Source: Coffea arabica
Taxonomy: Eukaryota > Streptophyta > Magnoliopsida > Gentianales > Rubiaceae
Length of the DNA stretch: 64,000 bases
Direction of reading: 5' to 3'
Assembly: GCF_036785885.1 (NCBI RefSeq)
Contig: NC_092326.1
Coordinates: 43,114,287 to 43,178,286 of the forward strand
The position numbers and the translations under genes are program-made. A model generated the notes under the pieces. The model saw only the letters and a list, made by a program, of their open reading frames with translations. It did no database searches and was not told the origin of the DNA. This document shows positions 13,171 to 49,300 of this stretch, piece by piece (position 1 is the first letter of the stretch; each line of letters starts with the position of its first letter).

Positions 13171-13252
13171 GGTATCATCTGCTAGTGCTATAGCTGATTA
13201 CTGTCTACTGCGGTATCATCTGCTAGTGCTATAGCTGATTACTGTCTACTGC
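13171..13252. repeat. Perfect 41-bp tandem duplication upstream of GH17
   Basis: The 41-base unit beginning ggtatcatctgctagtg is repeated head to tail at 13171-13211 and 13212-13252 with no difference seen. It lies 360-445 bases upstream of the GH17 start codon, probably in its promoter. Confidence 0.9.
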
Positions 13253-14429: not shown

Positions 14430-16160
14430 TCAGGTCCGCCTAAAATCAGGTTGATTGTTAACGGATCGAACCCAAGCCCACTTATGATCATTCGTGTCGA
14501 CCACATTGTTGGCCCCCGCCACCTCTTCAACCGGAATATACCCATAATTCCCATTGATCGGCCCGCACACAAACCCAGTGTAGCCGGCCATTGCTCCGTG
14601 CATGGCTGCGTGCGCCAATAGAGTGCAGTACAAATTATCCGTTGCATTCGCCGCCACCGCACGGATCGTGTACGTAGGATCTATGTACTTGACGGTGAAC
14701 AGCTCCTCCTCCGGGTGATCCCTCCCCCACCACTTCTTCAACTCCGATTTCAACCACCCACCAATATCCAACAACACCGCGTTCCCGGATTCATCCTTCC
14801 CCGCCTGTCCTTCAGCAGCTTCTTTACTTCTGGGTATTAGACGTTGTCCAGCTCCCTCTGCTACCACCAACACTGCATGCCCATTCTGTTTCAGCCGGCT
14901 TTCCAGGAACTCAAACAGCCCTCCTTTCCCTTCCAAGTAAAACTCAATTTCAGGGATTAAACAGCAATCCACGTCCCGGCTACTTAGAGTTGCGTGGAGT
15001 GCAATGTGCCCTGTGCTGCGCCCCATCAGCTTCACCAACCCTACGCCGTTAACTGCGCTCTCTGCCTCCACATGAGCTGCGCTGATTGCTTGCTGGGCCA
15101 TCTCTACCGCCGTCTGAAACCCAAACGATCTGTCAATCACCCCGACATCATTGTCCACTGTTTTAGGAATTCCAGCAACTGCTATCTTCAATTTCCGCCG
15201 CTTTATTTCCTCAAATATTTTTACTGCCCCACGCATTGTGCCATCTCCACCGATAATGTAAACCTGTGTCATTCTTGATCATGGAATGAGAAGGTGCAAT
15301 ATACTCATTTCTTTTTTTATAGAAAAAAAAAACTTCCTAGTAATATATGTATAGGATTAAGATCCCACCAAGTACACAAGGCATTCAAACCAGCTACAGC
15401 CTTGCCAATCTTTCGCTAATTGCATGCATGACACAATTGTTTTCTTAATTTATTTTTGTGTGCAAGTGTATCAAATGATTCTGACCTGATTATATCCACG
15501 ATTTTCAATGGCATTGACAATGAGACGAAGATCAAAACCACCCCTGGAGGTCTCCAGCAGCGTGCCACCCCTCTTGTGCAAGTCGTGAACCATCTTGGGA
15601 CAGAGTGGGACGGGATCAGTAGAAGCGGAATAAAAGCCCCGATACCCGGATTTAATACCAAAGATGTGGCGGACCCCATACAGGTCCCAGAGCCCGACCA
15701 CCAACTCCCTGATGACGGTGTTCATTCCGGGACACAGGCCTCCGCAAGTGACGATGGCGGCGCGGACGTGGGAGTGATCGAAGTAGATGTGCTTACGGGG
15801 GCCGGCTCTGTGGTAGGAGTCCAGCCGCTGCAGGTGGTGGGTTGCTGAGCCTGAGGTCCCAGCAGAGACAGAGAGGTCGAAGAGGATGTTGCGAAAGATG
15901 ACGTCGGTTGGGGAAAGGTAGAAGCCGGAGATTGGGTGAAAGAAGGGGATGGAGTCCAAGGGGTTAACGTGGGTTTGGAGGTGAGGAAGGTAATCGGTGA
16001 GGTGGGTGAGGCTATGGAGATTGATGACGCTGTTGTTATTAAAGCAGGTAATATTGGAGGATGTAACGGGCGGTTGTTGCTGCTGCTGCTGCTGGTGGGC
16101 GTCGTTGCGCAGGTTGGCTGCTGCTGCTGCTGCTGAGATATCCTCTTCCCCAGCCTCCAT
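14430..16160 (-). CDS. PFK2: ATP-dependent 6-phosphofructokinase, cytosolic PFK2-like
   Basis: Phosphorylates fructose 6-phosphate to fructose 1,6-bisphosphate in glycolysis. Two exons on the minus strand, 16160-15486 and 15263-14430, split exactly between codons; the product is 502 aa. Conserved signatures are visible: [10 protein letters not shown] (residues 138-147, nucleotide-binding glycines), [11 protein letters not shown] (228-238), IPKTVDNDV (257-265, catalytic aspartates), [10 protein letters not shown] (304-313) and [20 protein letters not shown] and the near-complete similarity of exon 2 point to the plant PFK2 type. No clear chloroplast transit peptide is seen. The N-terminus (about 65 residues) is longer than I recall for Arabidopsis PFK2 and holds poly-Ala and a seven-Gln run. 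The gene is divergently arranged with the GAUT4-like gene. Confidence 0.94.
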
Positions 16161-21600: not shown

Positions 21601-22961
21601 GTTTCCTTTTAGCTCAAAAAAGGTACTGATTAATGTGATGATGTACGGACTATTTGTGTTTTCTTGATTTTGTATCAATCTAGGTGATGATGTCCATTTG
21701 CATTTGTTGTGGATATCAGTTGCTGTAATCTTTTGTCATAACAAATTTCAATGTCAGCAGGACACTTCAAGGCATGTTTTCCACATCGTCACGGACAGGC
21801 TAAATTATGCTGCAATGAGGATGTGGTTTTTGGCAAATCCACCCAGCAATGCCACGATACAGGTCCAGAATGTCGAGGAATTTTCTTGGTTAAATCCAAG
21901 TTACAGTCCTGTTCTCAAGCAGCTGGGTTCTCCCTCCATGATTGATTACTACTTCAAGACTCGCCGTGCTGAATCTGATTCAAATTTGAAGTTCAGGAAC
22001 CCGAAATACCTGTCAATAATGAATCATCTACGTTTTTACCTGCCAGAAATTTTCCCCAAGCTAGGCAAGGTTCTGTTCTTAGATGATGATATTGTGGTGC
22101 GGAAGGATCTAACTAAGCTGTGGTCCCTTAATCTGAAGGGAAAGGTGATTGGTGTGGTTGAGACTTGTGGAGAAAGCTTTCATCGGTTTGATCGTTACCT
22201 AAACTTTTCAAATCCTCTGATTTCCAAAAAATTTGACCCTCGTGCTTGTGGTTGGGCGTTTGGAATGAATATTGTTGACTTGGATGAGTGGAAGAGGCAA
22301 AACATAACAGAAGTCTACCACTCATGGCAAAATCTGGTAAGGGATTTGGCTGGAGAAGTACATTGGTTCCTGATTCTTCAATAGGCATTGTTCCTTTCAT
22401 CAATCCAAATGCATGTGTTGACCAAAATCAGTGAAATATTTCCCCTTGCTGCTTGAAATAAACAAGTACTGTGACATCTTGCATTTATGATTACTAATAT
22501 GTGTCACTACAGGCATGCTTATTTCTATTTTTTGCTGTGTTAATAATCCAGCTTTGATGCTTATTTGGATTACTGGCAAGTTGTCCTTTGTGTTCATGTC
22601 ATTAGATTACTCATTTCAGTAGTGTTAGTCTGAATCTGCTTCAATTCTGAAGGCTTACTAGTGTAAGGTATTGGTGCTGTTACAGAACCATGATAGGCAG
22701 TTGTGGAAATTGGGGACACTGCCACCTGGATTGATAACATTTTGGAATCGCACGTATGCCCTTGATCGATACTGGCATGTGCTGGGCCTTGGTTACAATC
22801 CAAATATAAGCCCGAAGGAGATTGATCGAGCAGCGGTTGTACATTACAATGGCAACTTAAAACCATGGCTTGAGATTGGCATACCCAAGTATCGAAGTTA
22901 CTGGGCTAAATACGTTGACTATGATCAGATGTATTTGAGGGAGTGCAACATCAACCCCTAA
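18668..22961 (+). CDS. GAUT4: Polygalacturonate 4-alpha-galacturonosyltransferase (GAUT4-like, GT8)
   Basis: Golgi type II membrane enzyme that transfers galacturonic acid from UDP-GalA to homogalacturonan (pectin). Nine exons: 18668-18791, 18929-18966, 19112-19153, 19304-19433, 19571-19803, 20306-20577, 21209-21566, 21761-22336 and 22686-22961. The joined frame is open for 682 aa. Residues about 7-23 form the membrane anchor, followed by a variable Ser-rich stem of about 230 residues. The conserved part begins at PDARVSQLKDQLIRGKVYLSL. GT8 features are the metal-binding DDD (507-509 in VLFLDDDIVV), SFHRFDRYLNFS, and HYNGNLKPW (644-652), ending RECNINP. The stem is longer than I recall for Arabidopsis GAUT4 (616 aa). 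Exon 8 has a tandem cag-cag acceptor at 21755-21760. Confidence 0.94.
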
Positions 22962-26917: not shown

Positions 26918-29900
26918 ATGGTGGGAGGAGGAGGAGGAGGAGGAGGAGCATCTCGGAAATTGAAGAAGGCCGCCAAGAAGATACTTTCCCAAACATGCGC
27001 CTCCTTTTCCTGGACCACCACTTCTAATACCAGTACAAACCAAACCTCCCATGTCAATGTCCTCCCCGACACCCCCTCCAATGCTCTCCATGTGAGTCTT
27101 CTCTCTCTCTCTCTCGCCCCCTTAAATTTCTCATTGCTCAATCTCTCAAGTTCAACAAAATTGATACTGCTGCATGTACAATAACAGCAATCCCGCACCA
27201 TCATATATTTCTAGTGCAAATGAATAACAGGATGTTAACTCGTGTGGGTTAGATGTTCTTGCTCTCCTTCTTCTTCTTGTGTACTCGTTGTGTCAATAAA
27301 ATTACATGTTTGCATTTTATAGCGAAGCGTCTATTCCAGAATGAAATGAAATTTTCGTTTACCCAATCTTACCCCTCCTCCTATCTCTCCGTCTCCAGTG
27401 TGGTCTAACTTTCGTTCCTTCACCTCAATAATTGTTTCATTTGTTTTGCCCATTTGCTGAAGCAGGTATCTTCCGATTCAACCTGCTGCTACCTTTGTAA
27501 GCCCTCAATTACCTCTCCGCGCCCAATCTGCTCCAATGGGACCTCAGACCAAGCAGTTTCCACCACCAACACTACTATTTCTGCTAGTAAGGTGCTTGCA
27601 CTAATTAATGTCACCAACACTACTATCTATCTTCTTCTCCGTTGAGCAAAAACTTATCATTACTACTCAAGTGGTTATTGTAACATTCATTAACAGTGCC
27701 CTGACATATAATATTGCTTTCTTGTGCCCCCGCATCCCTAATCTCATTACTAAACAGCACTAACAAATTTGCCCGCAAACTTCGTTTTCCTTGCACTCAT
27801 TACTTGGGCGATTTTCCTGCAATTCCACATGTCCCAGTCATGCGTCCGACTTTATAGTCCTTCCCCCTTATTTATTAACTTGTTTTGTCGCACTTCATAC
27901 TTCACCTAATCTACTTATCTGTAGATGAAGGTATAGCCCAGCCAAGCCCAAAAAACTAAATATTTTTCTGTTTAATGACCCCACCCAGAGTCTCCGCTGG
28001 TGAACTAAGATATGCTGCTTGTATATGTGAGAGAGGGGTTACAGTATTGGATTTGGGATCTCTTCCATGAAATTTGAAGAAAGAGTGATGATGATTTCGT
28101 GTTACTTACATTGCGAAATTCTACTTGTAGTCAAATAAAAGCCATCTCATTCCTTCCTAAAAGTCCTACTTACTTAAAAATTGATTCTTGGATCAAGCTC
28201 TTGAACTGAACTTTTTCTTTTTATTGTAATTCAAATTTCTTGAATTTTGGAGGAGACGATAGCAAATATTTTAGGTTCAACACTGTTGGAAGAATTTGTG
28301 AGATAGACTCTTCAAGTTTCTCAATGAAAGGCCACTAAGAGAGACTACCTAAATCTCCACATCATCATCATCATGTTTCCGAAAAAGAAGATAATGGAAT
28401 TCTTTGGTAGGTTGTTTTTCGAATTTGAGTTGCCATTCCAACTACTTGGGTAGAAAGACAGTACGCGGATTATCGAAATTTAATCTGGCTGGGAATTTGA
28501 GTTACAATGCAGGTGTCTTTTTGCATTATGGATTTAGGATTCGGAGAAAGAGCTTGTTTACTCTCACCTATTGAAACTGTCGAAATCGATTCATTTCTTT
28601 TATTATAAATGCAGAATTCATTCCCCTTCCAGTTTTGGCATAATTCACTATATTATTCTGGTTTTGCTGTCTTAGGCTTTATGACAAGGTTTTTTTTTTT
28701 TTCCCCTTTTTTCCTTTTTCTGGCAGAGCATTTGTACGATCTGTCTGGATCCTTTGAATTGCAGCTCAGGCAGCAACCCGTGCCCAGCTATATTCACCGC
28801 ACAATGCTCTCATGCATTTCACTTTGCCTGCATCTCTTCCAATGTTTGCCATGGTAGCATGACCTGCCCAATTTGCCGTGCCCATTGGACACAGCTTCCT
28901 CGTAATTTAGATTCACATTGCTCCCTCCAAAGCAACCAGTCTGATCCCATTCTCCAGATCCTTGATGACTCTATTGCTAGTTTTCGGGTTCACAGACGCT
29001 CCTTTCTACTCTCTGCTCACTATGATGACGATGATCCAGTAGAGCCTGACCATGCATCAGACCATCAGCGTCTCCACATCTCTTTGTTACCTTTCCATCT
29101 AGCTCATCCTGACATTCACTTGTGCGCACATACGAATTCTGGGGTTAGTGTAGGTCATTCTCGTGATATTTCATTACAGCATCAATTGACTAGTCCCTCA
29201 CATTTGATGGTACAATCATCAGTTGTACCAGCAGAGCATCCTGCCACAGCTGGACAGTACCCTTTTGCTTGTACTTCAACAAGAGCTTATCTTTGTGTAA
29301 GATTAGAACATCAACCAGCAACTGATTTGGTCTTAGTTGCCAGCCCCAACGGGCCACACCTGAGGCTAATGAAACAAGCCATGGCATTGGTGATCTTCTC
29401 ACTGCGAGCCGTGGACCGTTTGGCCATTGTCACCTACTCTTCTGCAGCTGCACGCATGTTTCCCCTCAAGCGCATGACTTCCTATGGGAAAAGAACAGCA
29501 TTACAAGTCATTGATCGGCTTTTTCATACAGGACCTGCAAATCCAATTGTAGGCCTAAAGAAAGGGGTGAAAGTACTCAGTGATCGTGTCTACAGAAACC
29601 CGGAGTCTTGTATTCTGCACCTCTCGGATGGTCCGACCAGGTCCTACCATAGCTTCAGCACAGAAGTTCCCGTGAGAATATATCGCTTTCATGTAGGGTT
29701 TGGTTTCGGCACTTTGAATGGATTTGTCATGCACGAGTTTGAGGAATTTCTTGCCAGAATGCTGGGCGGGGCAATCAAGGAGATACGGCTAAAAATCAAG
29801 GAGGATGCTCGGGTTATAAAGCTTGGAGAACTAAGGGGCGGTGAAGAAAGAAGGATACCACTAATATTGCGAAAATGTGGGCATGTCTGCGTGGAATATA

Positions 29901-30124
29901 GCTACGTTGACAGTGGAATTGATGAATGCAGCAAGACTGGGGAAATTGTAGTCGGGATTCCAGATCAAAGTGAAAGGAATGACGGCTTAGATTCTGTTGC
30001 GAGCATGGGTGGGAGGACAAGCAGTGCGGAGAGCTGGGACTACCATGACTCTTTCATGGCTAGAAGATGGGCAAAGCATTTGCACGGAAACAGGCCACTG
30101 TATCCTACCATATATTCATCATAG
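26918..30124 (+). CDS. WAV3/EDA40-like E3 ubiquitin ligase (RING-H2 + vWA-like)
   Basis: Predicted RING E3 of the WAV3 family, whose Arabidopsis members act in root gravitropism and growth-direction control. Exons 26918-27091, 27466-27591 and 28727-30124 give 565 aa. A Gly-rich start leads into a basic helix (RKLKKAAKKIL, about 13-23). The RING-H2 finger is at 103-150: Cys103, Cys106, Cys127, His129, His132, Cys135, Cys147, Cys150. A vWA-like domain begins near residue 300 (DLVLV), but the metal site expected as DxSxS reads ASPNG, so the MIDAS is degenerate. Later motifs are DRLAIVTYSSAAARMFPL, MTSYGKRTALQVIDRL and CILHLSDGP. The exon-2 donor aag|gtgctt is weak but is the only one that keeps the frame. 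The N-terminal region and the degenerate MIDAS suit the EDA40 branch best. Confidence 0.88.
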
Positions 30125-32600: not shown

Positions 32601-35600
32601 TCTACATAACTAACATAACATACAACGCACCAAAGGGTTTCGTCGTCGTCACGTGCGACTCATGTGAGCTGTGTAATGTTCTGCTTCTCCGGGTGCTCCG
32701 TTCGAATGGATCGGGTAATTGGGTCGCCCATGGGTTTTCTGCTTTGGAATTAATTGCTGTACCAGCTCCTTTCCATTTCCGGCTCTCACAGCTACATTGG
32801 AAGGAGCTAACAGGCGACCTTGCTCAAGAATGACAATTGGCATGCTTCATCATGGCTGTGTCTTCCGAAATTGTCCGAATTCCAACACGGTTTGGTTGTG
32901 GCCTTTTTGTCTTAGGGTTTTCTCATCTGATTTCTCATTTCCATTTTCACAGATTTGTTGTGCCCTTCAACCCGTTCCCCTCGCCGACTTCTTTGGCCAG
33001 CTTGAGCTTGGTTACATCTTCTTCGTTTGTTTTAATCTCGGCCTCACGGAGCTTCTCTTACTGGCTCGTCTGAATCGTAACTGTGGTTCCTCCTCGTTTT
33101 TTTCCCGTATGGTTTTTTTAATCCTTGTCTTGGCTTTAATCCTTGTCTTGTTTTTAATGGTATTTGAATGTTATATCTCGCCATTATTCTTACTGCTCAG
33201 ACTTCATATGACAGCAATTTCTTTTCTTTTTGAAAATAATTGGTAAGGGAGTAATCCTACCCTTAATTATAAAGACCTCTGTGGAATTGTGAACTTACCA
33301 ACAGCGCAAGGAAATTTTTTTTGCGGATTTCCTTGCTATTTTTCCTTAGGTTTTTCTTTCTTTTTTTCATTAACCTTCTTGTTCTGTACATGTTTCTCCT
33401 TTCCGTGATGTGCATATATCTTTGCTTCTTACGTTTTTATTTACTTATATTGGCATTGCTAGATACAAATGAATTCTTTGACTGGTAGAAATGGCTGTTA
33501 GGGCTATTTTTTCAATTTTTACCTGTTTCTCTGGCCGTTTTAACGTTTAGTGGGAGAAAGTTTCTAAGAAATCCATCTGAGTGAGTTAACTTTTGTGTGG
33601 TTGTGAATATGATTTTTGCCCAGAATGATTTTTGTGTAAATGAGTTGATCTTTTGTGCCTTGAGTGTGATTTTTTCTCAGTGCATTTCCTTGCTGTTTTC
33701 CTTGAGTTCTTCTTACATTTTTCATTAGCCTTGCTGTGTTATGCATGTGTCATTGCTTCTTACATTTTTATTAGCCTTGCTGATTACAAAAGATTTCCTT
33801 GGCTGATATTTTGTTCCTATCTTTTTTTCATGGCCTCTAAGAAATGGCTATTGGGACTTCGCATATCCCAAGTTGATAAGTCTGCATTTGATTGGACTGT
33901 ACTGGTTCAAGTTATCGAAGCTGATTGTGTGAAGATTGCTCGGGATGGGGATTTACCCAGGTTTCTTCATCGATTTGCGTTTGGTGACTTGCAGGTTTGT
34001 GACACCGAAATTGATTGTTCTTATGCACCTTCTATTCTGCTGATTATCTTTTTGTCTTATGAATTGAATCTATTGAGTTTTTTCCCCCGTGGATAGGGTA
34101 TCAAGATCTCTGCAGTTGTCTTTGATGATGACATTGCTATTGTCCATGGCCGTCTTTTGCCATTTAGGAAGTATTACATATCAAATGCAGAGGTCCGTGA
34201 CATTCCTGAACTTGTGGGAACTGGCCTGTATTCATTTTATTGGGTTATCGACAAGGGAACTATTATCCAAGCAGCTGTTGGTTCAGGGGAGTTGGCCCTT
34301 CCTTTCTATCTTGAACTGCGCTCTTTTCACTACTTTCACTTTGTGGTTGACACAGATATTTTCATAAGATAGTATCTTTATTGATATGTTTGCATTATTT
34401 TCTTGTTTGGCATTTGATTGTTCCTGATTGTGTACGTGTGTGCTTTTTTTACTTAGATGTCATGAAAGTTGTTATCCATGCGTTGCCTCCATGGGACGTG
34501 TATTTTGAAGGAAGTGAGGGATATGGAACTATGGAAGGGATTAGATTATAGTGGACCAGAGGTGAATTTTTTTCCTTTTAAAACAGGACCTTTTATTTGT
34601 TTAAGATTGTTTTCCTTTGAAACAGGACCTTTCCATAGGATAACTTGTCGTTGCTTGTTTTAAGATTGTTCTACTTCTGTGTATGATGAATACAATAGAC
34701 GTCCAGTGATCTGGACTTCTGTGGAATGATTATGAGGCTATTGAGGGTCGTGTTATTGAGGAATCGATTATTATTGCTATGAGGGTCAGGGTCACCAAGC
34801 AGAATTGTATGGTTCCTTGTCAACTCCATGTTTTTCTCCCTATGTGGTTTCTTTGCTTATGCATGTCTTTTTGCTCTATTTTTTTAGACCTGCCGCTATC
34901 AACTCAACCATCATCTATTGGTCTTGCAATTTTTTTTTTTACTTTTCCTTTTTTTGCTGATTGGGATAAGTTACTTGACAGTCATTGCTGTATTTATTTT
35001 GCAATGAAATTTATACGGCTGTCAGAAATGATAAAAGCTTCTCTGGTCTTGTTCAAAACAAGTCATACACCAATTATAGTCCCAGAATGTTTTATGATCG
35101 AAACCACAAAATTACCTCACTTGTGGATATTACGCCAGCTCAAAAGGTCATGACTTGTTTACTGCTAGATTCACTTCTTTAAACGATACAACTATGTTAT
35201 TTTTCCGATCTATTTATATATGTATATACACTTAGATGTTCTTGTAATCTGTTTTAATTTCTACAGGTGTCATGGGTTAAGACTTGCTTTTCTTTTGAGC
35301 ATATTCTGCAAAAGATTGGTATGTGTCTTGTGTCAAATGTTTTCGAATGACATCAGCAAACTATGATTCTGTTTATACATGCAACCACTGCAACGAGAAA
35401 CAGAGAGCTGTACTAAGGTAATTGACGCTTTGTTCATGAATGTCATTGTTCTATAGTTATCGCATAGCACTAATTTTCTTGAATTTACTAACTTATCTCT
35501 AGAATACATATTGATACAGAAGTCGTTTTGATGTTGATTTCACTGATAAAACTGACACAGTCACAGCTTCAATATTTGGCTAGCTAGCCAAATAGCTGCT

Positions 35601-36883
35601 TAAATTCACTGCACTCCAAGCAAGGAAGTACTATAACAAGGTCAGAATTACAAATAGCTTTGAGTAACTCTGTATTAGATGCATATACTATGCCTGCTAA
35701 TCCAAGTTTATGAATTTACTTAACAGAATGAAGAACTTCCACTTGAAAAAGTGCATAGAGAGAAAAAAGATGTTCATTGTCCAACTGAAACTAGGAAATA
35801 CCAGGGATGGTAGTAGAAATGACCGTTACACGATTGCTTATTACTTTGAAAAAAATGCAGCAACGTCTTCTTTCAACAAAGATTCCCATATCAGTGTTGA
35901 GAATCAATTTCTCCAAGCTAAAGAACAGAACTCAGAAACTGGTTCTTCAAGCCATTTTTTTTAATAATTTTGTTTTCCATTCCTCTTATTCAATTTATTA
36001 ACATTGCACACTCCTTCATTTTAGAAGGACAACGGTCTTCTTTAAAAGTGGGAGTTCGTCTCAGAAGAAGGTTTAGAAATGCTAGAGAGATAGAAAAGGA
36101 AGCTACATGAGTTGATGACTCTGGCAACGGCAAGAAAAAACAAAACTTTTCTGATCTTTCCTCATCCATGCTACTCTTTCAAGTTGCATTAATGATGTTG
36201 GAAATCTTTTGGATACTGTCGAGAATAGACAAGCTCGAACAGATGCAAAACTTACGTTTTGATGAATTTATATATATGCCTTAAGTTCCATTTAGATGTT
36301 TTTGCTTGGAACCTATGCTCCAGTTATCACAACTGACGTATTCTGCATTGTTGTCACCAACAGGTTTTATACCATGTAACTTCTAGATGCTTATCGTATA
36401 TTTATCCGTTTGTCTATCAGAGCACCTGACTTTTGGAACTAAGTAGTACTTGTCTGCTTATTAATTAAATTAATGCATGCAGATTGATTGCCATGATTCT
36501 ATACGTGTAATAAGATCAAAAATGAGAGAATTTGCATGTCCAGCTTTGTTTACATACAAATTGACAGCTACAAATACTGTAAAACAAACACGTTTTGTTT
36601 AAAGCAATCTCTTCATTATCTACTACACCAGCAAATTTCAGAATTGCAACCAATTAGACCACATTTACACTTAATGCTCATTGCTGTATTTTTCCTTCAG
36701 TAACACATCAAGCTTTCCCCTTTTCTTCGTGCTTCCTTACAGTAATCGATTTTGAGATGTGTTGTGCTCTTAATATTTAATCCAATCACACTATCACTAT
36801 TCGTATAAACCCTTTTTAACCTCATCTAAATTGGCATACATGTTGGTTATTCCACCGCGCAACGCCGCGGTTATACCTCCTAG
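32601..36883 (+). mobile_element. Helitron (H1) containing a broken RPA1-like gene; 5' end approximate
   Basis: The 3' terminus is convincing: a short GC hairpin (ccgcg-caacgc-cgcgg, 36854-36869) is followed by ttatacctcctag and then T, the plant Helitron pattern of hairpin plus CTRR before a T. The 5' end is not resolved; I place it near 32601 because caaagggtttcgtcgtcgtc at about 32630 recurs just after the H1 3' end as caaagggtttcgtcgt, as if it were a shared 5' subterminal motif. RPA1-like genes are common cargo of plant Helitrons. No Rep/helicase frame is seen, so H1 is non-autonomous or deleted. Confidence 0.6.
33830..35965 (+). pseudogene. RPA1-like OB-fold (replication protein A large subunit) pseudogene
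   Basis: Single-stranded-DNA-binding replication protein A-like gene of the type carried by Helitrons. Homologous blocks: 33830-33994 (MASKKWLLGLRISQVDKS, DWTVLVQVIEADCV); 34097-34371 (GIKISAVVFDDDI, LLPFRKYYISNAEV, YSFYWVIDKGT); about 34690-34800 (NDYEAIEGRVIEE); about 35010-35147 (FSGLVQNKSYTNYSPRM, ITSLVDITPAQK); 35268-35320; 35360-35418 (YTCNHCNEKQRAV, half of a zinc ribbon); 35530-35640 (DVDFTDKTDTVTASIFG); and about 35730-35965 (RYTIAYYFEK). It is broken by a stop at 34370-34372 unless spliced, a frameshift near 34715-34722, in-frame TAGs at 35581-35583 and 35593-35595, and another frameshift near 35770. Confidence 0.8.
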
Positions 36884-37267
36884 TAAGTAATAAAAGTGCA
36901 AAGGGTTTCGTCGTTCTGCACGTGATTTCGTCGTCCTCACGTGATCTTCACTGGTATCTGTTTAGCGCATCGCGCGACGCCTAGGTCAGACTAAAACACC
37001 GCCAGTCTTCTCTTCCTTTTCTTCTCGATTTTTTTCCTCTCTCTCTTCTCATCGACCTCTCTCACTGCCTTTCCTCCATCGATCTCCACTCCCTCGTCCT
37101 TTACTTTTATTTTGAAAGTTTTTGCTCCACTTTTTTTCCCTAGGTGAAATATCAATATCAGGGAGTATTTCAATGTTTTTGGCTTTTCTGCTTTTAACCT
37201 ATCTCCCCGTTTACGGGCAAAGATGTATTTTTTTTTTATGCATTGTTCTTACCCTTTATTTTTATAG

Positions 37268-37684
37268 GGCTCTCACATCAAACGGATCAAGCAAGTCTTG
37301 AAGAGGCTTTTCAAAACTATGGAGAAGTTATTAAAGGTAATGGTTCTCACAGAGCAAGAATGGCCATTGAATTCCTCATATTTTGATAGTTTGTGAAGAA
37401 TTATTCTTGTTGGTTGAACCGCATATTTGGGCTGGCATATGCAAATCCATTCTTCTTGCATGGGCTCAAATTGCAGAAATTTTTTTTTTTGGCTATTGTA
37501 ATTCCTTTTAGATTTTTGCCCGCACAAGGTTTGATTACCTCTCTCAACAAATACCATTGACATATTTGGCTATTTGCTGCCTTGTTTATAGGTTTATTTT
37601 CTGTTCAATTATTTGACATTGATATATTTGTCTGAGTTCGTTTTGCCACTCTGCAGCAAGAGTTATTACTTGTACTACGTTCAG
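37268..37684 (+). pseudogene. Captured RRM (glycine-rich RNA-binding protein) fragment
   Basis: Exon-like segment 37268-37336 encodes LSHQTDQASLEEAFQNYG followed by EVIK, the first part of an RRM as in plant glycine-rich RNA-binding proteins, and ends in a GT donor in phase 1. The next piece, 37657-37684, follows a cag acceptor and in the matching phase gives ARVIT, continuing the expected GEVIKARVI. The rest of the RRM, including RNP1, is not found, so only a fragment with its intron was retained. Confidence 0.65.
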
Positions 37685-37861
37685 GTTATTAACAATTTAA
37701 CATCTTTTTTTATTTGATCGCCGTCTCCTTTTGTTTATGACGGTATTCATCTCTGCCCCCACCCCCTCTCTCTACCTCTTCTGCGTGGTCATAGCAAAAT
37801 TCACGATTGGGCAATTAAGTTTTGATGCATGTTTGATTGATGTTGTGTTGCTTGTCTGCAG

Positions 37862-38130
37862 TTGGGCTGCTGTAGTCCACCAAAACGTTGTGATTTTCTG
37901 CAAAGAAATGAAAGCTTCTGGGATATCCCAGAATCCGGGTTTGCTTCCCAGAACGAGGAATGCCAAATGTGGGCAAACAACAGCAACAAAGGAGGGTGCT
38001 ATGATTGTGACTCATGCAAAACAGGTTACTTAGCCAAATTCTAGATGGACTGGCAGGCTGATAAGGTACTATTCGTGGCCATCCTTCTCATCCTCATAGT
38101 TAGTACCTCCCTCGCCTTCTGGACCTTCAG
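37862..38130 (+). pseudogene. Captured tetraspanin fragment with premature stop
   Basis: After a ctgcag acceptor the frame reads GCCSPPKRCDF, then CQMWANNSNKGGCYDCDSCK and TGYLAKF. This is the second extracellular loop of a plant tetraspanin, with its GCC motif and spaced cysteines. An in-frame TAG (38042-38044) interrupts it before MDWQADKVLFVAILLILIVS, the start of the fourth membrane segment. The frame is otherwise kept, which suggests fairly recent capture. Upstream exons of the tetraspanin are absent. Confidence 0.75.
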
Positions 38131-38843
38131 TTTCAGGGATGAAAGCGAACATGCCCGTGAACAAAGGAATTACAGGAACATGGTTAATGCTTGTTGCGCT
38201 AGTGTGCCAATTTCAATTTTGTTCCCTTTTGTCGTGGCTGAATCGTTCACTGTAGAATATAGATACCAACCAACTTTGGAGGAGTTCAATTTGGGCAATG
38301 TTCGTCATATTTGATGCAATTGCCTCTGAATTTGGTAGCTTTGCTACAGTAGATTGTAAGTACATGTGTACCAGAATCACTTCTCTCACCCTATCCTATA
38401 GCAATAGAGGTGCATTTACGAAATTTAGGCTTAGTGATTGAGAGCTTTTATTGTTTTACAGAGGAGTGTTTATTGTTGTCTAGATTCTATATTTCTGTGT
38501 CCATTCAGGCTGCATTAGGCCTGGGGTTTCTCAAATCATCCTTTGCTCTAAAATATCAGAAAAGGGGGGGAAAGAAAAGAAAACAACAGCAATACAATGC
38601 TGTTCTGAAATAGCACACTTCTCCATGTATACCATTTTTGAAGTGCTTATGCATTTTTAATTTTAAATCGTTGGGGTGACCAGAGAGGCCCGACTTGGAC
38701 ACAAGTATTACTCAATTCTTCAACGACTCCATCTATGATTTGTCTTTAGTGAATGGTGTGATGGTAGCGTAAAGTGTGTAGGTAGTCAAGATAAAAGGAT
38801 AACCTCTCTGTGTCTGTTAATGACTCACCGTCTCTGGCTCGTG

Positions 38844-39176
38844 ATAGGAACCCCAGCTCTCACTTCTAGAGGATTTGCTGAAGAAGATTTTGTCAAAGTG
38901 GGTGAGTTCTTTGATGTAGCCGTGAAACTGGCTCTGAATCATATGTTACTTTGACTCATCTTTTTTTAGATCCTCTGGCGCTTAATAAGCTGGCAGGGTG
39001 TTCAAATAGCTCTAGCTTTGCTTTTGTTCAGGTACTAAATTGAAGGACTTTGTGGCAACAATGAAGGATGCTAACTTAAATCTGGGATTACTAAGCTACG
39101 GCATGAGGTTGAAGGGTATGCCAAACAAATTCCAACAATTGGGTTCAAGAAAGAAACAATGAAATACAAGGACTGA
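38844..39176 (+). pseudogene. Captured serine hydroxymethyltransferase C-terminal fragment
   Basis: Segment 38844-38939 reads [20 protein letters not shown] then [12 protein letters not shown], the conserved C-terminal part of plant SHMT. After an intron and a cag acceptor, 39032-39176 continues [16 protein letters not shown] and, after a frame change near 39090-39097, [18 protein letters not shown] and KKETMKYKD before the native-position stop. The frameshift shows it is not a working exon set; the catalytic PLP-lysine part is absent. Confidence 0.8.
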
Positions 39177-40760
39177 ACAAGGTTCCCCACATTGTAAGGT
39201 AAATCTGCAGCTTGTTGACTGCTGATCAAATGCTAATTCATTGATTTTTAAGTAAGAATAGATAGTAGGACCATAATCTTCATAGCAGATTACTTAAGCT
39301 GTTGATTTTTCTGAGTCACTGCAGCCCAATCCTCTTGAAAACTGTTTTTTTGACTATTGTATTGCTAATGTTTTAGGTTCTACTTCTACGTAGAGATTTA
39401 TATTCCATGTCTACCTCAATATATGTACGAAATTAAATGCTGGCACTTGTGCAATTTACTGGTTGATTTGTAAATGCAATACCTTCACATCATTTGACGA
39501 TTACATTCATTTTGCCCCAGAGTTTTGTTGATGGCATTAAATGGAGCCTCGGGGAGGAGTTGATGACTTGAGCTGTATGTGATTTAGAAGGCTTCTTCTC
39601 GGGTATTCATCTGCAAGGACGGGCCAATTTGAGATGGGATTACATCATTACTAAATTTTGTATAAAACATTTTAAACCCTAGCAATGTATGAAACTTCCA
39701 AGGTTTCAAGAACATTTGGGATCAACATCTTTCTTGAACATGAGAGAATAATTAAAATGCCCTGCGTGGTGGTGGACTTCGAGGCACTTTCTGAACTCTT
39801 CTTGTTAGATACTCTCTCTAATCAGCAGTTAAGAGCATGGAGCATGAATTTAGATGAGGTTGTACAATCAAATCATTATCTTTTCAATTGAAGTGGAAAA
39901 ATATAACCATGTGAACTTTCATATATCTTTTCTATTGAAGGCAGCAAATGAAACAATAAACATTACCTTCTCATTGAACGGTGCAAACTAGGTATGATCA
40001 AAATTGGAGAGTTTATAATTGTTTTTTAGTATTATACTCACCAGTGAAATTTGCGGTTAGAAGGTGAAAGAAATGTTATTGAACCTCTAGATTAAATATT
40101 GTTAAATATTTAAAATTTAAATTATTATGTTTTAGTAAGAGATTTTTTAAACAAAATACGGGGATGCAAGAGAAAAATGTCGCTTCCCTATAAACTTCAG
40201 CTGACCGATCAAAGCCAGCCACATCATGACTAAGGTTGCAATGATCCAAGGAGGAGCTGACCATCTGACTCATATAGAAAATGAGTGTGTTTTTGTTTGT
40301 TTTGTAATATTATTAATAAAATTAATATTAATTAAAAATTCTGCATATTATTAATTAAAAATCAGAGCCATATTTCATTTACAAGAATAGCTCATCCAAT
40401 CTAAATTTTGTCTTTGTTATCTTGCAACTACTATCAAAATCTTGGTAAAAGTGTAACTTAGTAATTTGAAGTTTCAAATAAATATACACAAAAGAAGATC
40501 TTAAAATGCAAGTAAAAAGATAAATTGGCTCAAAGAGGAAATAGAAAACAAGTGCATCTTTCCGTTGTTATAATTTCGCTTGTATAGGAGTTAAAGTGTA
40601 AACACTTAATTATGAATTAAAGGCTTTTATTAATTACTGAAGAGACTGATCTCCACAAATTACATATTTAAGGATCCATCCTTCCAGAGTTTACTAATAA
40701 TCAACATACTTTTTCTACATAAATTACTATTTTTATTACTTCAAAACTGAGCAAGGCATT
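39177..40760 (+). other. 3' part of Helitron H2, no gene seen
   Basis: AT-rich sequence between the SHMT fragment and the H2 terminus. The first part may be captured SHMT 3' UTR. Frames such as 39685-39891 have no recognisable motif. Confidence 0.4.
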
Positions 40761-40799
40761 TTATATTTCAATCGTGCGAAGCGCGCTTATGCCTCCTAG

Positions 40800-43384
40800 T
40801 GGGAGCAACAGTGCCATGGTCTGTAGTGTCTGTACTGGGGAAGGGTAAGGAAGGGAAGGGAGGAGGTGGGAAAATGGCGAGGAGGAAGGAAAGAGGAGAA
40901 GAAAAAAGGGGAAGTGGTCGGTGGTCAGTGTTAAGTAGTGGTCGTTGTGGATAGAAAAAGAAAACACGGTAGGGTATATTTTTTATTTTATTTTATTTTA
41001 TTTTTAGATATTTTTGTATGTTATATTTGAGATTATGGATAAGTTATATTTGATATTTTTGTAAGTTATATTTTTGTATTTGAATTTGAAATTCAACTTT
41101 TACACACATATAACAAATTAAACGGTGATAGTGTATATACTGTCAGTGTATATAAGATTTATTCATACCAAAATAGTTTTGAAAAAACAGTTAGAGGCTG
41201 AGAAAGAAAGAAGGAAGAGAGTCTTGGGTAAGGTGTTCGACAAACTTGTTCTCCTGAATAAGGATGTTACATAAAGCATTCGAATGGGGCACTCTCTCAT
41301 CAGTCGGTGTTACCACACACAAAAAGGAAGCAAACACCAACTAGAGAGACCGTTTCCTTGAGAAAAAGCAATTCTTTGAAGTGATTGATCCTTGGGTAAA
41401 AGTCAAGAACGAACAAGGGTAAGCACCCAAGTCACGGCGGAGCAAAATACGCTCAAAGGTAGGCAATTGCCCCTCCCCCTTCAAGTTTGCTAAAATTATA
41501 TAATTGGCTATGAAGTTTTCAAAAACTTTAACATTACTCGATATTTGCATTCCTTGAATTATGTAAAAGTCCTTGCTTTATTTACATTGCCCCCTCCTAC
41601 CCCCCTTTCCTATCCAATTTCCCTTCAAATTTCTTCTCTGTCTAATTTTTTTCTTTATTTCTATTGACCTTCTATATAAATAAAATTTGTATAGTCATGA
41701 CTTATGACCATTAACAAAATTACTGGACCTACTTCAAATTAAATATTGAAATTATTTTAAATGGGTTAAAAAGGTTTCAACAATATATAATACATCTAAG
41801 AGAACAATTTGAGTGTACCAGATATACAATAAAAATAGTGAAATGGATCATGTAAATTTTGTTTACAATTGTTCTTTATAGTGTCTATTCTATATCTACT
41901 TCCACTCTTTACTAAGAGAGAGGGAATTGGCCCAAATGGACTAAGAGAGAACTCGGAGGAGATTGAATTATCATCGTACCAAATTAGTGCTTCTGCAACC
42001 CATTGATGAAACATTTAAGAATTCTGGAGATGAATGCAAGTCCACGAAGAATCTTAAAACTCTTTCTAGTGACCAATTGGTTTTACAATTGTCCTTTGCA
42101 CCTATTAGGTTTGGCTCCAACAATAACTCAAAGGGTCAAGTGCATGGACTAATTACTCATCGCCTCAGTTCTTCGGTTCAATTGCAAGAGTTCGCATTAG
42201 GCCCGTTGTTTCAAAGTATAGCTAAAAACCAAATCATGCTATTACCTATTATTTAGGTTTGTCCTAAAGTATGCATTCTTTTGGTGATTTATCTGTTTTT
42301 TTAGTGTATGGCACATTTCACTTATATTCCTCTCTCTATGCCATCCAACTCATTCCCTGTCTTCCCCGCCTGTGATGATTTACTTAAATAGTAAATATAT
42401 GGGAGGTCAATCTAATTTTTCAAAATTGAAGAGAACCACCTGCAATTGTTATAAATCTCGTAGGAGGTTTGTTAAATAATCTCTTATTCACATGCAAAGC
42501 TCGATTTTAAGCCAATCTATTAAATTTAGGCACTGCTTGAGAACTTAATTCAACATTTAAATCTAATAGATTTAGATCTTAACATGTTCAAATGCGTTTG
42601 ATAACAAAAAATTGAACATTTGAATTAGTTAAATGATATTGAATTTTCTAAGTAGAATTTGATCTAAAAAATAAGTGATAAACTATTCACATATAATGTG
42701 ATATACATTCAAATGCATTACATTTAATATTTAATAATTTAATGAATTCAAACTTTAATTTTGATTTCATTTCAATTTTTATATTTCAGTTTGTAGATTT
42801 GTGTGCCGCGTTACTCAGCACACTCATCAGCCAAAGACTTTGTGTTTGGATTGTATTTTTCATAATTTTTCATGAAAAATTACTGTAACGATTTAATATA
42901 TGTGAGAAAAAAAGGTAATAGAAAAATGTGATTACGAAAAATGACGTAATTTTTCGATGGAAAACAGCAATCCAAACGAGACCAATATACCATGTCAATT
43001 TCGATTACTACCACACGAAAAGAGAAAGTCTAGTACTAGCAATAATAATGTCGTTGCATCGTAATCACAAAACAGCTAGTAGTTAGTACTAGTACTGTAT
43101 TTAAGCTGACTCCACTGCTATAGCCCTAAACATATATTTACTAGCATGACTTTAATTTTTCCTTTGATTTTTTTTTTGTCTTTTTGGCTGAGCTTTTAAC
43201 TTTTGAGAAAGGCATCCCTAGATTTTGGTATCTGATTCATTAATTCATTCATTTTGGAAGTGAAAAAATCTCAAAACATTTTTCCAATTGGTTCCGTTCC
43301 ATATCTCCTCCTCTTGGTCCTCGGCGGTGGGTGGTTTTCAGTTGCTGTTGAAAGGAAGGAGAAGGGGGAGGAAGGACGGAGCAG
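40800..43384. other. Repeat-rich intergenic region before the MYB-CC gene
   Basis: Holds a GGA-rich low-complexity run (40835-40920), (ttatt)n at about 40980-41005, AT-rich anonymous sequence and a MITE-like element (separate entry). The last roughly 150 bases are the likely leader of the MYB-CC gene. No protein gene is recognised. Confidence 0.45.
42844..42977. mobile_element. MITE-like element with 10-bp terminal inverted repeats
   Basis: gtttggattg (42844-42853) is matched by caatccaaac (42968-42977), and the inverted similarity continues imperfectly inward (tatttttcat against tgttttccat). The 134-bp body is a near-palindrome rich in aaaaatta. No target duplication could be confirmed. Confidence 0.6.
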
Positions 43385-46300
43385 ATGCTGCCGAGATTGA
43401 TCCAGCCAAGGGAAGGCGTAATAATCCAGGAAGAGCATATCAATAACAGTAGCAGCAATAGGACTACTGCTGGAGTAGGGATTGGGGCAATTGGGGTTGG
43501 GTTAGGAGACCCCTGTCTCGTCTTAACTTCCGATCCCAAGCCTCGCCTTCGATGGACAGCTGACCTTCACGATCGCTTTGTTGATGCCGTTGCTCAACTT
43601 GGCGGCCCAACCAGTTAAGTCTTTTCCTTCCCCTTTTTCTCTTCATTTTTTTTTGCTTTTACCAAAAAATTTTCACTGCTACTAGTGACATAAATTAATA
43701 AAATTTGACTGCTTATTCGCTGTTATTTTTATTTTTATTTTAGTTACTAGGGGGAATGCCGCGCTAAGCGTGGGAGTTTTAACCTATGTGATAATTGGTT
43801 TAATTAGAGCTGCATGGTAATTGGTTTAATTGAATCAGTTGAAGTGCATGACATTATAAGTAAATTGGCCAAATCAGCAAACTTATAAAGGAAAACAAAT
43901 TTGTAAGTAAAAGAAATAGGATTATAGTGGATAATCACACCATACCACAACAACAATAGCAAAAATATCATTACCTTTGTTCCTATACCATTATAATACA
44001 ATCATAGCCATATCTAATCAACAATTAATATGCATAAATTATAAGGCTAGATTTAGATCCTACCTTGGTCATGAAATTGCAGTCAATAGATAATCTTTAG
44101 TCGCAGTTTAACCACCTGCAGCCACGAACATCAGATTTTAGAAATATAGTTAGAAAATGTAAAAAGGTTCCTATGGATATTCATATGTATGTATCATGTA
44201 TTCTATAATGAAATTTCCATATTCACACAATAGCTATTGAGAAAATATTGCAGTAGAAAACTCACGGTTTTTATTATATCAGCTAAACATCCAAAACTCC
44301 AAAAAGAGAGAAAGTAAATGAGCATGCTTGTCTAAATACCCACAACAAAAAATTGAGCACATGCACTTGAAGCAACATTCTTCAGTATTAAAAGCCTCCA
44401 TTATTGTTAAGTTGAAGAACACTTCAATTATACTTGTAACGGATTGGAAATATGAACCAAAACCAATCATGTTCATTATTAAGTGCTTCCTGAACCAATC
44501 ATCTTTAGCATTAAGACCCTCTATTATTGTAGTTATAAAAGCTACCCAGCAATTATAAAAGAAGATAAAGAGCATTGCAATTACATTTGTAAGTGGTTTA
44601 AACACCACTTAAAAGTTTGATAATCACGTGGAATATAAGCCAATTGCAAATGGGATGGCACCAAAGTCAAATCCAACTCAACTATACATTATAATGTTGC
44701 ACATTTGGCTTAATCACTTGCATTTGATTTTATTCCCTACCTAAATTATCCCCAAAGATGACATATGAAAATTTTCCAACAATCACCTACAAACTCCTTT
44801 ATATATATATAGGATGCTATGTGTTTGTACCACCAATAAAATTAGCGAGAGCACTATGATTGTCCATTTAATTCAGATTAATATTTGTCCCATCTTCCAA
44901 TATGCTCTCTATGGTTTCATCAATCATTCACCACCACTGCCCTTATCCCTACTGTGGGCATTCTTTATTGTGTTGCAGTCTGGGATACTAATCTTTTGAA
45001 TAGTTGTGAAAAAAAGGTCTGAAACTCTTTAAGAGGTACTGCTTTCAGTGATCAATTAGCCCAACTGCAGAATCCTTCAAACTTCTCTTACTTGTTTTAG
45101 GACATTAACATAGCGGGGTCAATTTTTTTAAGCCTTTATCCCCTATTACTCTATTCTTCCAAAAGCCCACTCTTTTCACGCCACTAGTTTAATTATGTTA
45201 AACTTTTTTTTCTGTAGTAGTAGGCATGGCCACGGTTCCAGAACCGCCGGTTCTGGTTCTTCAAAGAGGTAGAACCAGAACCGCACCATATAAGATGGTT
45301 CTGGTTCTGGTTCCAGAACCGCCGGTTCTAGTTCTTCAAAGAGGTAGAACCAGAACCGCATAGTTCTGATTTCGGTTCCTTATGGTTCTGGTTCTGGTTC
45401 CGTATGGCACCCTATAATTTTATTTAATTCTTTATCCTTACCAATTTTAATACGAATATAACAATATATTTAAAATTTCAAATAGAATTTACAAAAATAA
45501 ATACAAAATAAAGATCATATTTTAATTTTATTATTATTCTACAAAGTAAGAAGTAATAAATAGACAATACAAATTTTATGAAAAGTACATTACATTGTCA
45601 AATTAAAAAATACATTACACTATCAAATGGTTGGCATGTGTTGACTTTCTTGAGTTGGGCAATCATCAATGTTGAAGATTTCATTTGAAGAAATATTGCA
45701 AAAAATGTTTTTTTGCTTGCTTGATTTTGAAGATGAGCTACTACCATCAAAACTTGCCATTGTTTGATAGCAAATAAGCAAAAAAAAAAGTAATAATTTA
45801 ATACTTACAAATTATAATGATAGATATTAGACGAAAAAAATAATTAAATAATTAATAAAATATATAGAAAGTCCATAAATTTTAAACTTTCTTAAAACCT
45901 ATTAAACACAACTAATTTTTTTGAATTATCTCACTACTTATATTAATTATTTTTAACGGTTCTGGAACCGGCGGTTCTGGTTCTGGTTCTATTTTTAAGA
46001 GAACCAGAACCGGAACCTTTATCCAAGGTTCTGCCACGGTTCTGGTTCCATGGTTCTGGTCCGGTTCCAAATGGTCCGGGTCCGGTCCAGTTCCCAGTTC
46101 CAAATGGAACCATGGCCATGCCTATGTAGTAGTATTGTACGTCATTGGCCTTCTCCCTGACTCTTTTGCATAATTAAGATGTACGATTCTACATTAAAAT
46201 CCAGAGAACTGCCAAATTTAAGATGAAAACCATTTGAGCTCTTCTTGTAATTTTTTTTTGGTCAAAATTGTTGACCGCCATATCAATATAACATCTGATT

Positions 46301-49300
46301 GACATTTGGAAGACATCAGATGAGCTTAGACTACTGTATAGGCTTGCTTGGTAGACAGTTGACAGATAATCCTGAGATTTGGTTTACTTATTCATGTGTT
46401 AGTGTTACCGTTGATTGACAATTTGCCAAAAAACTAGCAATGGCCATGCTTCTGTGAAGGGGAGGAACAGAAGCGGATAAACCAAGGTTTCTTACCAGAT
46501 TTGGATCTGTTTGAAGATGTTAATGACATCAAAGCTACAATTCTGATTTAAACATCCCTCTGACTCACTTGTACCATACCACTTCACCTTCAGTTCAGAG
46601 ATTTTCTATACAGCAGTACAAGGATGTGGAAAAAGTTGAACCCCATTAGACCTTAGCCAAAATGAATGAGCTGCGTTTCTGAGTGTTGTTCAAGTCTTAT
46701 ATTTGGGCTCAAATGATTGACTTGATCTTTTGTTACTTTGTGATAACCTATTAGTTTGAGATCTTATATACTGCAAGGTTGTTGGTCTGTTTTCACTTTT
46801 ATCAAAACTAGTGTAGGGATATGTGCACTGCACATTTATTTTTGGTAATTTTTGCATAGATATCTTGATCTGAAGAATGAATCTTTTCTCATGATAGTCC
46901 AAGAAGATGAAGTTCACAAATCTAAAGAATTAAATAACACATGCTATCGCTACTAATTTCAACTGCTTGTGTTTTATGTCCTTTAGAGTTATTTTTTAAT
47001 TCTCTTTGAATGTTTTTTCAATTACAATCTTTTGACCTGTATAGTGTCAGAGTTTTTTAATAAAGATAAAAAATGGCCATGTGAAAAGTATTAACTTTGA
47101 AGAAGATAAAGGACTGTGACGCAGCACGAACACTTGGTGGGCACAACAGTGTTGTAGAAGGGCTTATATATTGAATATCACCGAACTTAAAATAGCAACT
47201 TGAAATAGGCTGGCAGATTATGCTTAAGAAGGTAAAACTGGTTGGTAGTTCTAGGAATCACTCCTAGGAATCTTTAGGCCTCACACCTAAAGTTGGGATG
47301 CATCACACTGCCCTAAGGGAGACATAAAGTCTGCAGGAATATTTTATTAAATGACCAAACTGCCTTCTCTTTGTGGAGAAGTTGATATTTATAGACACTA
47401 GGACAAATCCCTTTCCAATCCTAATTAGGATTCCTAACTAGAATAGAATTATGACTAGAAAGCTAGAAGGCTAAGCTTTCTTATTCCCTATAACAACCAA
47501 CTTCCTAATTACCAAGAATAACTACTAAACAAAAATTACTGTAAACATAAAATTCCTGCAGCTAATTCAAATTACTAAAATACCCCTGCTGACAGAAATC
47601 AGAAAATAAACTCCATAGAATTCAGGCCAACTCCCAAGTTGGTTCCTTGTCATCAAAAGCATGCCAAATCAATGCCTGGGCATTCAACATATCCTTCCCA
47701 CGTCTCCTATAAACCTTAGTGGACTTTTGCCACTTATCGCTATCAGACTGTATGGTAATTTTCTGCAGTGTATTGTCAATCGAGAAACCTAAGCTGAAAA
47801 ACTACAAGTGCTTCAATTATGAAGTGACGCATTTAAAACTATACTCATTGTTTGAGGGGGGGGGGGGGTAAAGACAGAATACCTGTAAATACTCTTTTAA
47901 GGGTAAATAGATCATACTTGATGGATATTTGTATATCACTTGCATGAATCTATCATGAAATTACTTTCCTAAAAGCTTTTTGACCTTTTGGTTCAACAAA
48001 TGGTCTATGGTTATTGATGCTGGGGGGGGGGGAGGCATAATGAGTGCATGATAACTTAGACATAGGTTTGGAATTTGTCCATATCTAACACAAACCCATA
48101 ATTGTTTTTATGAGCATTAACCTAAAATTGCAAATCTAGACCCAGACTGTGCAAGATATTCGTGGGTTTGCATTGTCTAAATTCATATACTCAATACCCA
48201 CATCCAAACCTGGACCAAACTCTATCTAGACCCATGATTAAGTGATAATATTTTGAACAAATATAATTAGTTAGTTGTGTATCATGCTTTTAGTTAATTC
48301 TTGCATGCGACATTCTTGAATGTTAATTTTGTTATTTTAAAATGGCAATTGTATAATGTTCATTTCATCTTTGATATCCATGTCTGTTATTATTTTTTAA
48401 GTTTTTTTTGTATACACATTACCAAAATACATATGGATATCTATCAGGTATCCATGTATACATCAGGTATCCATACTCATGTGCGGGCAACTCCGGGTCT
48501 TTGGTTAGTCTAGGTCCACATCTGGGTATGAATAAATATAGTGCATTTGGGTCCGGATTTAGTAGATTTGACACTACTCTACCTATTGACACGCATATAT
48601 ATGTCAGCTTGCGCAAATTTTATGGTGAAGGTTGAATAATGATCTTACCTGTTAGAAGGGTTATATAAAATATTCACCAAAATTATAGACTAACCAAAAT
48701 GACAGCCTTAGTAGGTAGATCTCTGAAACCCATGCCATTACCATCGAATTGAGTGACTTCTCTTTCTTTCAGTCCAACGTTAGAGTATATAACAATTGCC
48801 CTTCTCCAGACTTTTTCCCCGTTATTATATAATAATAATTACCAAAGCCCATGTGAAGAAATTTTGCTTTGATTTTTTAATAAAAAAATCCCATAAATAT
48901 TTCATTCTGAAAGGAAATAAATGGACGTTTTTCCCATGACATCTTAATTAATATAATTTTATTTAATAAGTTCCATATTAATCCCAAAACTTTCATCGGC
49001 CAATGCCTCTGGATTGTATACATGGAAAATGTTCAAGATGCTAGATATGCCACTGTTACATTTTTTTTCTTTTTCTTTTATTGCGAAATGTATAGTATAT
49101 AAAAATTGTTTGTCTTCTATCCTTGTCTGGAAAAATTATTCAACCACAGCTTCTTGCATATTGTGTTTTGCTGTTGGTTTTTATGCCTTAAATTTGTTCA
49201 TCATCCCATGTTCATCTTAGATTCTGCACAGCTATTTTTCAGGTTGCTTTTGTTCCAATCTTGGACTAAAGATAGGGCAAAACCCGCAAGACATTGTCTC

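Follow-up and report, generated by a model that had tools for sequence, protein, structure and literature searches.

A Helitron carrying pieces of three host genes, with a second Helitron nested in its 5' end, in the genome of Coffea arabica

Pieces of three host genes lie side by side in front of a Helitron-type 3' end on chromosome C17 of Coffea arabica (NC_092326.1, forward strand, C17:43114287-43178286; this whole stretch of 64,000 nucleotides is called the window), which raises the questions of what element carries them, where it begins and how the pieces came together. Positions 32601-40799 of the window are very probably a non-autonomous Helitron, here called B, with a second Helitron, A, nested within it, the gene pieces having been joined by template switching and having decayed afterwards. 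The genome to which the window belongs (1.198 Gb in 131 contigs) was searched for copies, donor loci and the second haplotype. C17 and C18 were treated as two haplotypes, the window being colinear with C18 in 20 blocks of more than 200 bp at 77.6-98.7% identity.

Positions 37252-40231 are a chimera of RRM, tetraspanin and mitochondrial-type SHMT gene pieces, set back to back with no spacer and all on the + strand, as the original prediction of three gene fragments in one orientation had it. The RRM piece (37252..37669) comprises the exon at 37267-37335, its intron and the start of the next exon, and is 88-92% identical to loci on C7 and C8; its spliced reading of 33 amino acids matches Pfam RRM_1 with an E value of 9e-4, just below the curated cut-off, and the corresponding exon of the C7 donor, after which comes a glycine-rich frame, matches at 9.2e-10. 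The tetraspanin piece (37665..38845), placed by alignment and translations, comprises the end of one exon, an intron, the last coding exon from 37862 and a downstream part, and is 90.6% and 86.4% identical to loci on C13 and C14, respectively. Taken alone it is only suggestive (Pfam E 0.61), and its part at 37841-38041 had no match in PDB up to an E value of 5; the two joined exons of the C13 locus match Tetraspanin above the cut-off (E 5.3e-10), and the last exon is open up to the stop at both C13 and C14. The SHMT piece (38845..40231), delimited by PDB matches, genome alignment, junctions and translations, comprises the last coding exons, the natural stop at 39174-39176 and about 1.05 kb of downstream sequence. 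Positions 38739-38951 match plant mitochondrial SHMT2 (6smn, E 1.6e-9), and 39075-39173 match the extreme C-terminus of the same protein down to its last residue (E 2.2e-8); these exons lie in two frames owing to a 1-bp deletion, and B lacks 33 bp in which the first SHMT exon probably had its splice donor. Compared with C19 and C20, this piece is 84.0% and 85.9% identical in the main blocks and 69% and 79% identical in the last blocks; at C19, the exon upstream of the captured part matches SHMT (E 7.7e-15) and the last exon has an uninterrupted frame up to its stop.

The three pieces thus have matching donor loci on three other chromosome pairs, C7/C8, C13/C14 and C19/C20. The members of each pair resemble alleles (C19/C20 97.4% and C7/C8 97.6% identical in their longest blocks, C13/C14 90.9%), and the loci read as the named families, as expected of the donor genes that were sought in the same genome. 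A Pfam search with ten open pieces gave SHMT at 7e-4, under its cut-off, and no match for eight others; the remaining one, 38045-38311, matched four families below threshold (E 0.058 to 0.12), which were set aside, as were the two top-ranked BURRH rows of one protein search, which are sums of sub-threshold repeats, and the OspA rows of another. A literature search for capture of SHMT by Helitrons found no papers.

The captured pieces sit between 5' and 3' regions that are also present in kin elements. The 3' region of B (40276..40799, + strand), recognized from its sequence and from the 3' ends of kin, contains a hairpin (CGTGC-GAA-GCGCG, 40773-40785) of five pairs, one of them G.T, and ends with CTAG at 40796-40799, followed by T. 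The predicted hairpin and CTAG-T end at 40799 is therefore present, and it is shared: with the window and the C18 copy left out, 18 of 54 query matches end within three bases of the 3' end of B, at 70-85% identity. The 5' region (36884..37251, + strand) is CT-rich and has parts in common with six aligned kin stretches. B-type 5' ends read TCTACATAAGTAATAAAAG. Of 25 exact occurrences of this pattern, 22 were read in context; by eye, 21 continue into family sequence and one does so partly. The preceding base in these 22 is A in 17, T in four and G in one, several being allele pairs and so not all independent; the C18 allele of B reads A/TCTACA and that of C17 reads G/TCTACA (slashes mark boundaries here and below).

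A complete relative on C15 (C15:51606081-51613048, 6968 bp) carries calreticulin exons (E 2.6e-10 and 3.5e-16) and makes the manner of insertion of the family visible. Its filled site reads ...CTTA/TCTACATAAG...CGCGCGAAGCGCGTTCATGCCTCCTAG/TTTGG, with a 3' end of CTCCTAG, and the empty site ...CTTA/TTTGG is found on C16 and in three duplicated segments of C15. The C15 relative is a canonical insertion between A and T, with TC...CTAG ends and no target duplication. Thus other copies with the same ends, donor loci and the canonical insertion of a relative all accord with the predicted multi-capture Helitron. That unrelated pseudogene fragments merely lie beside chance Helitron-like ends deserves almost no credence: CCTCCTAGT with one mismatch occurs 13 times in the window against 8.7 expected, a number that 10 of 100 shuffles reach and that is not above chance, but the recurrence of the same ends and internal regions in kin and the exact empty site of the C15 relative contradict this explanation. 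Elsewhere in the genome, a stretch of C14 (C14:2655500-2661000) with the same family 3' end, in which no 5' end was identified, contains a protein-kinase exon (E 1.2e-9), and a stretch of C3 (C3:30665500-30671500) with a 3' end of the same family is about 95% identical to it.

The original prediction placed the start of the element at 36884, which is instead the point where a second Helitron ends; the true 5' end of B is at 32601. The first nine bases of B (TCTACATAA, 32601..32609, + strand) are separated from the rest by Helitron A (32610..36883, + strand; hairpin 36855-36870, CTAG 36880-36883), which is present on C17 and absent from C18, while the C18 haplotype and kin read TCTACATAAGTAATAAAAG uninterrupted. 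At the insertion point C18 reads GTGCTTA/TCTACA/TAAGTAAT without interruption; on C17, GTGCTTG/TCTACATAA is followed by about 4.27 kb that ends with a hairpin and CTCCTAG, and after this comes TAAGTAAT. The left edge of A was placed with the help of A-type 5' ends, which read TCAACATAAC where A has CTAACATAAC, and its start is approximate, the initial TC reading CT. The three bases TAA are repeated on either side of A, a departure from insertion without duplication. The hexamer TCTACA is part of B and precedes the start of A, because the empty site of the C15 relative, on C16, lacks TCTACA and A-type kin begin TCAACATAA after the base A in all four cases read. These two observations also led to the rejection of two other assignments of the hexamer, namely that B had lost it and that it is a host target motif.

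Helitron A is most simply explained as a putative internal-deletion derivative of a helicase-bearing Helitron, because in its kin the halves that meet at base 2319 of A lie far apart (10.3-10.7 kb at four loci, 19 and 47 kb, respectively, at two more) and the interior of one relative, on C3, encodes a PIF1-type helicase between its halves (E 3.4e-63). An RPA-like reading of the open frames of A was dropped after no Pfam match was obtained.

The same joints between the gene pieces recur in the C18 haplotype and in a shortened copy on C11 (C11:13941397-13943378), which covers positions 37556-39480 of the window at 92% identity. The C17, C18 and C11 copies share 17 substitutions in the tetraspanin piece and 29 in the SHMT piece against both donor alleles, and the 1-bp deletion in SHMT is common to all three. 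From these shared joints, substitutions and deletion, it follows that the chimera arose once, before the haplotypes and the C11 copy diverged. It is improbable that B took the chimera up whole after it had been built at another place, break repair at the C11 locus being one example. The C11 copy has the RRM-tetraspanin-SHMT order with the same joints, it retains the 33 bp of SHMT that B lost, and in the 9 kb around it no family 5' motif and no hairpin with CTAG were found, by a scan that also missed the end of B itself. In its present form, however, the C11 piece could not have been the source, because B extends further into the RRM and SHMT genes at both outer ends (37252-37555 and 39481-40231) and is continuous there just as the donors are; the C11 copy is therefore better read as a truncated relative. 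On C12, which carries the allele of the C11 locus, only the part corresponding to 37556-37737 was found within the stretches read.

The RRM-tetraspanin joint has 5 bp of microhomology, ATTAC, common to both donors; random joins of the RRM and tetraspanin loci share at least 5 bp in 0.7% of 200,000 draws. An alternative is read-through capture, in which the transposase bypasses its own 3' terminator and takes downstream gene DNA up to another terminator, stepwise over several transpositions. Bypass has been demonstrated experimentally for Helraiser, in the part of PMC4778049 used here, and stepwise capture has been proposed for maize, in the part of PMC3288121 used. It is nevertheless unlikely to account for B, in which the captured pieces are internal with the family 3' region beyond them. 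Bypass predicts a relict terminator before the captured DNA; a scan for hairpins with CTAG, of limited sensitivity in that it missed the end of B itself, saw none between the pieces. Given the microhomology at one joint and no terminator found between the pieces, the case leans towards internal template switching as the probable route, and acquisition of the pieces in steps, as proposed for maize, is possible.

In the proposed course of events, the RepHel protein of an autonomous relative would move B by rolling-circle replication. Either during such replication or while a break within B was being repaired, the strand under synthesis may have switched template from one gene to the next, aided by short shared sequences, and so left gene pieces inside the element. 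The pieces would then have decayed, with an excess of C-to-T changes such as is expected in methylated, silenced DNA.

The pattern of decay bears on whether the chimera could function as a new gene with a transcript that is spliced across the pieces. Their sense orientation, several splice sites and the inclusion of the SHMT stop with downstream sequence would suit such a gene, but it is very improbable, the tetraspanin piece having a stop on C17, two other stops and a lost acceptor (AG changed to AA) on C18 and a frameshift on C11, and the SHMT piece having its 1-bp deletion in all three copies and its likely splice donor deleted in both haplotypes. Such damage to frames and splice sites argues against a conserved chimeric product, although no full-length chimeric frame was searched for. 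It also qualifies the earlier statement that intron borders were kept, which holds for several splice sites and fails for the SHMT donor in both haplotypes and for the tetraspanin acceptor on C18. The interruption of the tetraspanin frame by one TAG (38042-38044) had been taken as a sign of recent capture; since this TAG is private to C17, with CAG in C18, C11, C13 and C14, it is uninformative about the age of capture, and the captured DNA is mostly 84-92% identical to its donors. Private changes of C to T or G to A make up 12 of 18 in the tetraspanin part on C17 and 18 of 30 on C18, and 10 of 13 in the SHMT part on C18. Between the window and the tetraspanin exon of C13, the nonsynonymous rate dN is 0.040 (10 changes) and the synonymous rate dS 0.099 (6 changes), which are too few to show constraint. 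In the 5' region of the C18 copy (C18:40194413-40210492) there is an element of long terminal repeat (LTR) type with 3.5-kb direct repeats that are 99.86% identical.

Several observations weigh against B being a Helitron that joined these genes by template switching. Where tetraspanin meets SHMT, the joined product preserves a microhomology of only 1 bp; GTGATTT is common to both donors at this point, but it would count only if 2 bp were later lost. Microhomology was judged at the two inner joints, the outer ones lying near 37252 and 40231. Between the SHMT piece and the family 3' region lie 44 bp (40232..40275, + strand) that match none of the fetched donors and of which kin match only 2 bp at the right edge. 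The empty site of B itself was not found, since both haplotypes are occupied, and no helicase-bearing element with exactly the ends of B was identified; in the C3 relative of A, the Rep stretch beside the helicase has no Pfam match. On C17, the SHMT part shows only a weak excess of C-to-T changes, which make up 6 of 15 while 4 run the other way. The 5' pattern, with at most one mismatch, was found at 52 places, of which 25 are exact, against 48 for the reversed control, so the count alone is no proof, and copies count only where they were read. Mismatch-tolerant counts of the junction pattern were likewise no higher than the control, and for both patterns only exact matches read in context were used.

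The junction between A and B has counterparts elsewhere. The junction CTCCTAG/TAAGTAATAA was found at 245 places with at most two mismatches (control, 249), of which three are exact, and all three run into B-type 5' sequence: the C17 junction of the window, C18:8231681 and C2:25767699. In each, the CTAG end of another Helitron abuts the same point, six bases inside a B-family 5' end. The junction at C18:8231681 lies behind an A-type element and that at C2:25767699 behind an end that does not match A, so at least two families have invaded. The left side was read at two junctions, with three repeated bases on C17 and two on C18; at C18:8231681, the sequence TCTACATA/TCAACA stands at an A-type left end that lies 51 kb upstream, and the repeat of 2 bp holds on the assumption that this end is part of the same element. 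Three of the five junctions with one mismatch were read and gave no BLAST match to the 5' region of B; the one on C9 does represent a genuine Helitron end, with TAAGAAATAAAAG after it. Tentatively, the first A^T in the B-family 5' end (TCTACA^TAAG) might be a recurrent landing site for other Helitrons, at which the 3' end is exact and a target repeat of 2-3 bp is left on the 5' side. If so, Helitrons stack onto one another's front ends and displace the 5' end of their neighbour, and the rule that Helitrons make no target duplication does not hold there.

Other Helitron joints and repeats were encountered in the genome. Head-to-tail joints, with a hairpin and CTCCTAG/TCAACATAAG, are present at C9:51048755, 51056510 and 51064265 and at C22:53971662 and 53979417; they are spaced exactly 7755 bp apart within each chromosome, the five surrounding 401-bp stretches are identical, and the whole looks like recent rolling-circle tandem arrays. 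The motif CTCCTAGTCTACATAAG, with at most two mismatches, was found at 2084 places against 147 for the control; as a Helitron joint it was rejected after four of five places read lacked a hairpin and appeared by eye to be an LTR-type repeat, the fifth being the Helitron array just described. CTCCTAGTCTACGTAAG and its variants (for example C9:9190338 and C9:9200225) are often paired about 10-17 kb apart, and four places read resemble an abundant LTR-type repeat.

The two haplotypes differ at several other places in the window. About 0.9 kb at 45223-46124, consisting partly of palindromic GGTTC...GAACC repeats, is present on C17 and absent from C18, whose flanking blocks have about 10 bp in common, the pattern expected of a target duplication; about 0.63 kb at 47118-47745 is also present on C17 and absent from C18, and at 42077-42136 C18 has about 4.7 kb that C17 lacks. 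Perfect tandem repeats occur at 13171-13252 (41 bp, 2 copies) and 63658-63785 (56 bp, 2.3 copies). By Pfam, the open frames of host genes in the window encode a GH17 protein with an X8 domain (8473-9687, - strand), a phosphofructokinase (14430-15278, - strand), a GT8 glycosyltransferase (21668-22384, + strand) and a protein with VWA and RING matches just below the cut-offs (28685-30124, + strand). Scans of the window with Rfam (gathering scores) and for tRNA genes gave no matches.

The capture of several genes by Helitrons is best described in maize. B is an ordinary, well-resolved case of this known gene shuffling in plants, with one unusual pattern of nested insertion. A single assembly contains the captured unit on both haplotypes, a third, truncated copy and the three donor loci, so that the joints and the decay can be read base by base, and the haplotype-polymorphic Helitron A shows how the apparent 5' end of an element gets displaced. 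Helitrons with several gene fragments (PMC2267711, PMC3288121 and a 2026 review, PMC13317346) and head-to-tail Helitron neighbours (PMC2267711) are already known from the parts of these papers used here. As described in those parts of PMC2267711 and PMC3288121, the gene-fragment Helitrons of maize likewise have CTAG ends, usually insert at AT, carry fragments of several genes per element and vary by presence or absence between genotypes, as A does here between haplotypes; unlike them, B belongs to another genome and family, and its one chimera can be compared across both haplotypes, a shortened second copy and the donor loci. Captures by Helraiser, in the sections of PMC4778049 consulted, similarly involve foreign DNA and a hairpin that acts as terminator, but they lie downstream of a bypassed end, whereas those of B are internal. 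Two directly joined Helitrons, with genotypes that differ by one of the two elements, are described for maize in the same part of PMC2267711, much as on C17 and C18; the maize joint reads CTAG/TC, whereas here CTAG meets B six bases inside its 5' end, with the first bases of B lying beyond the insert.

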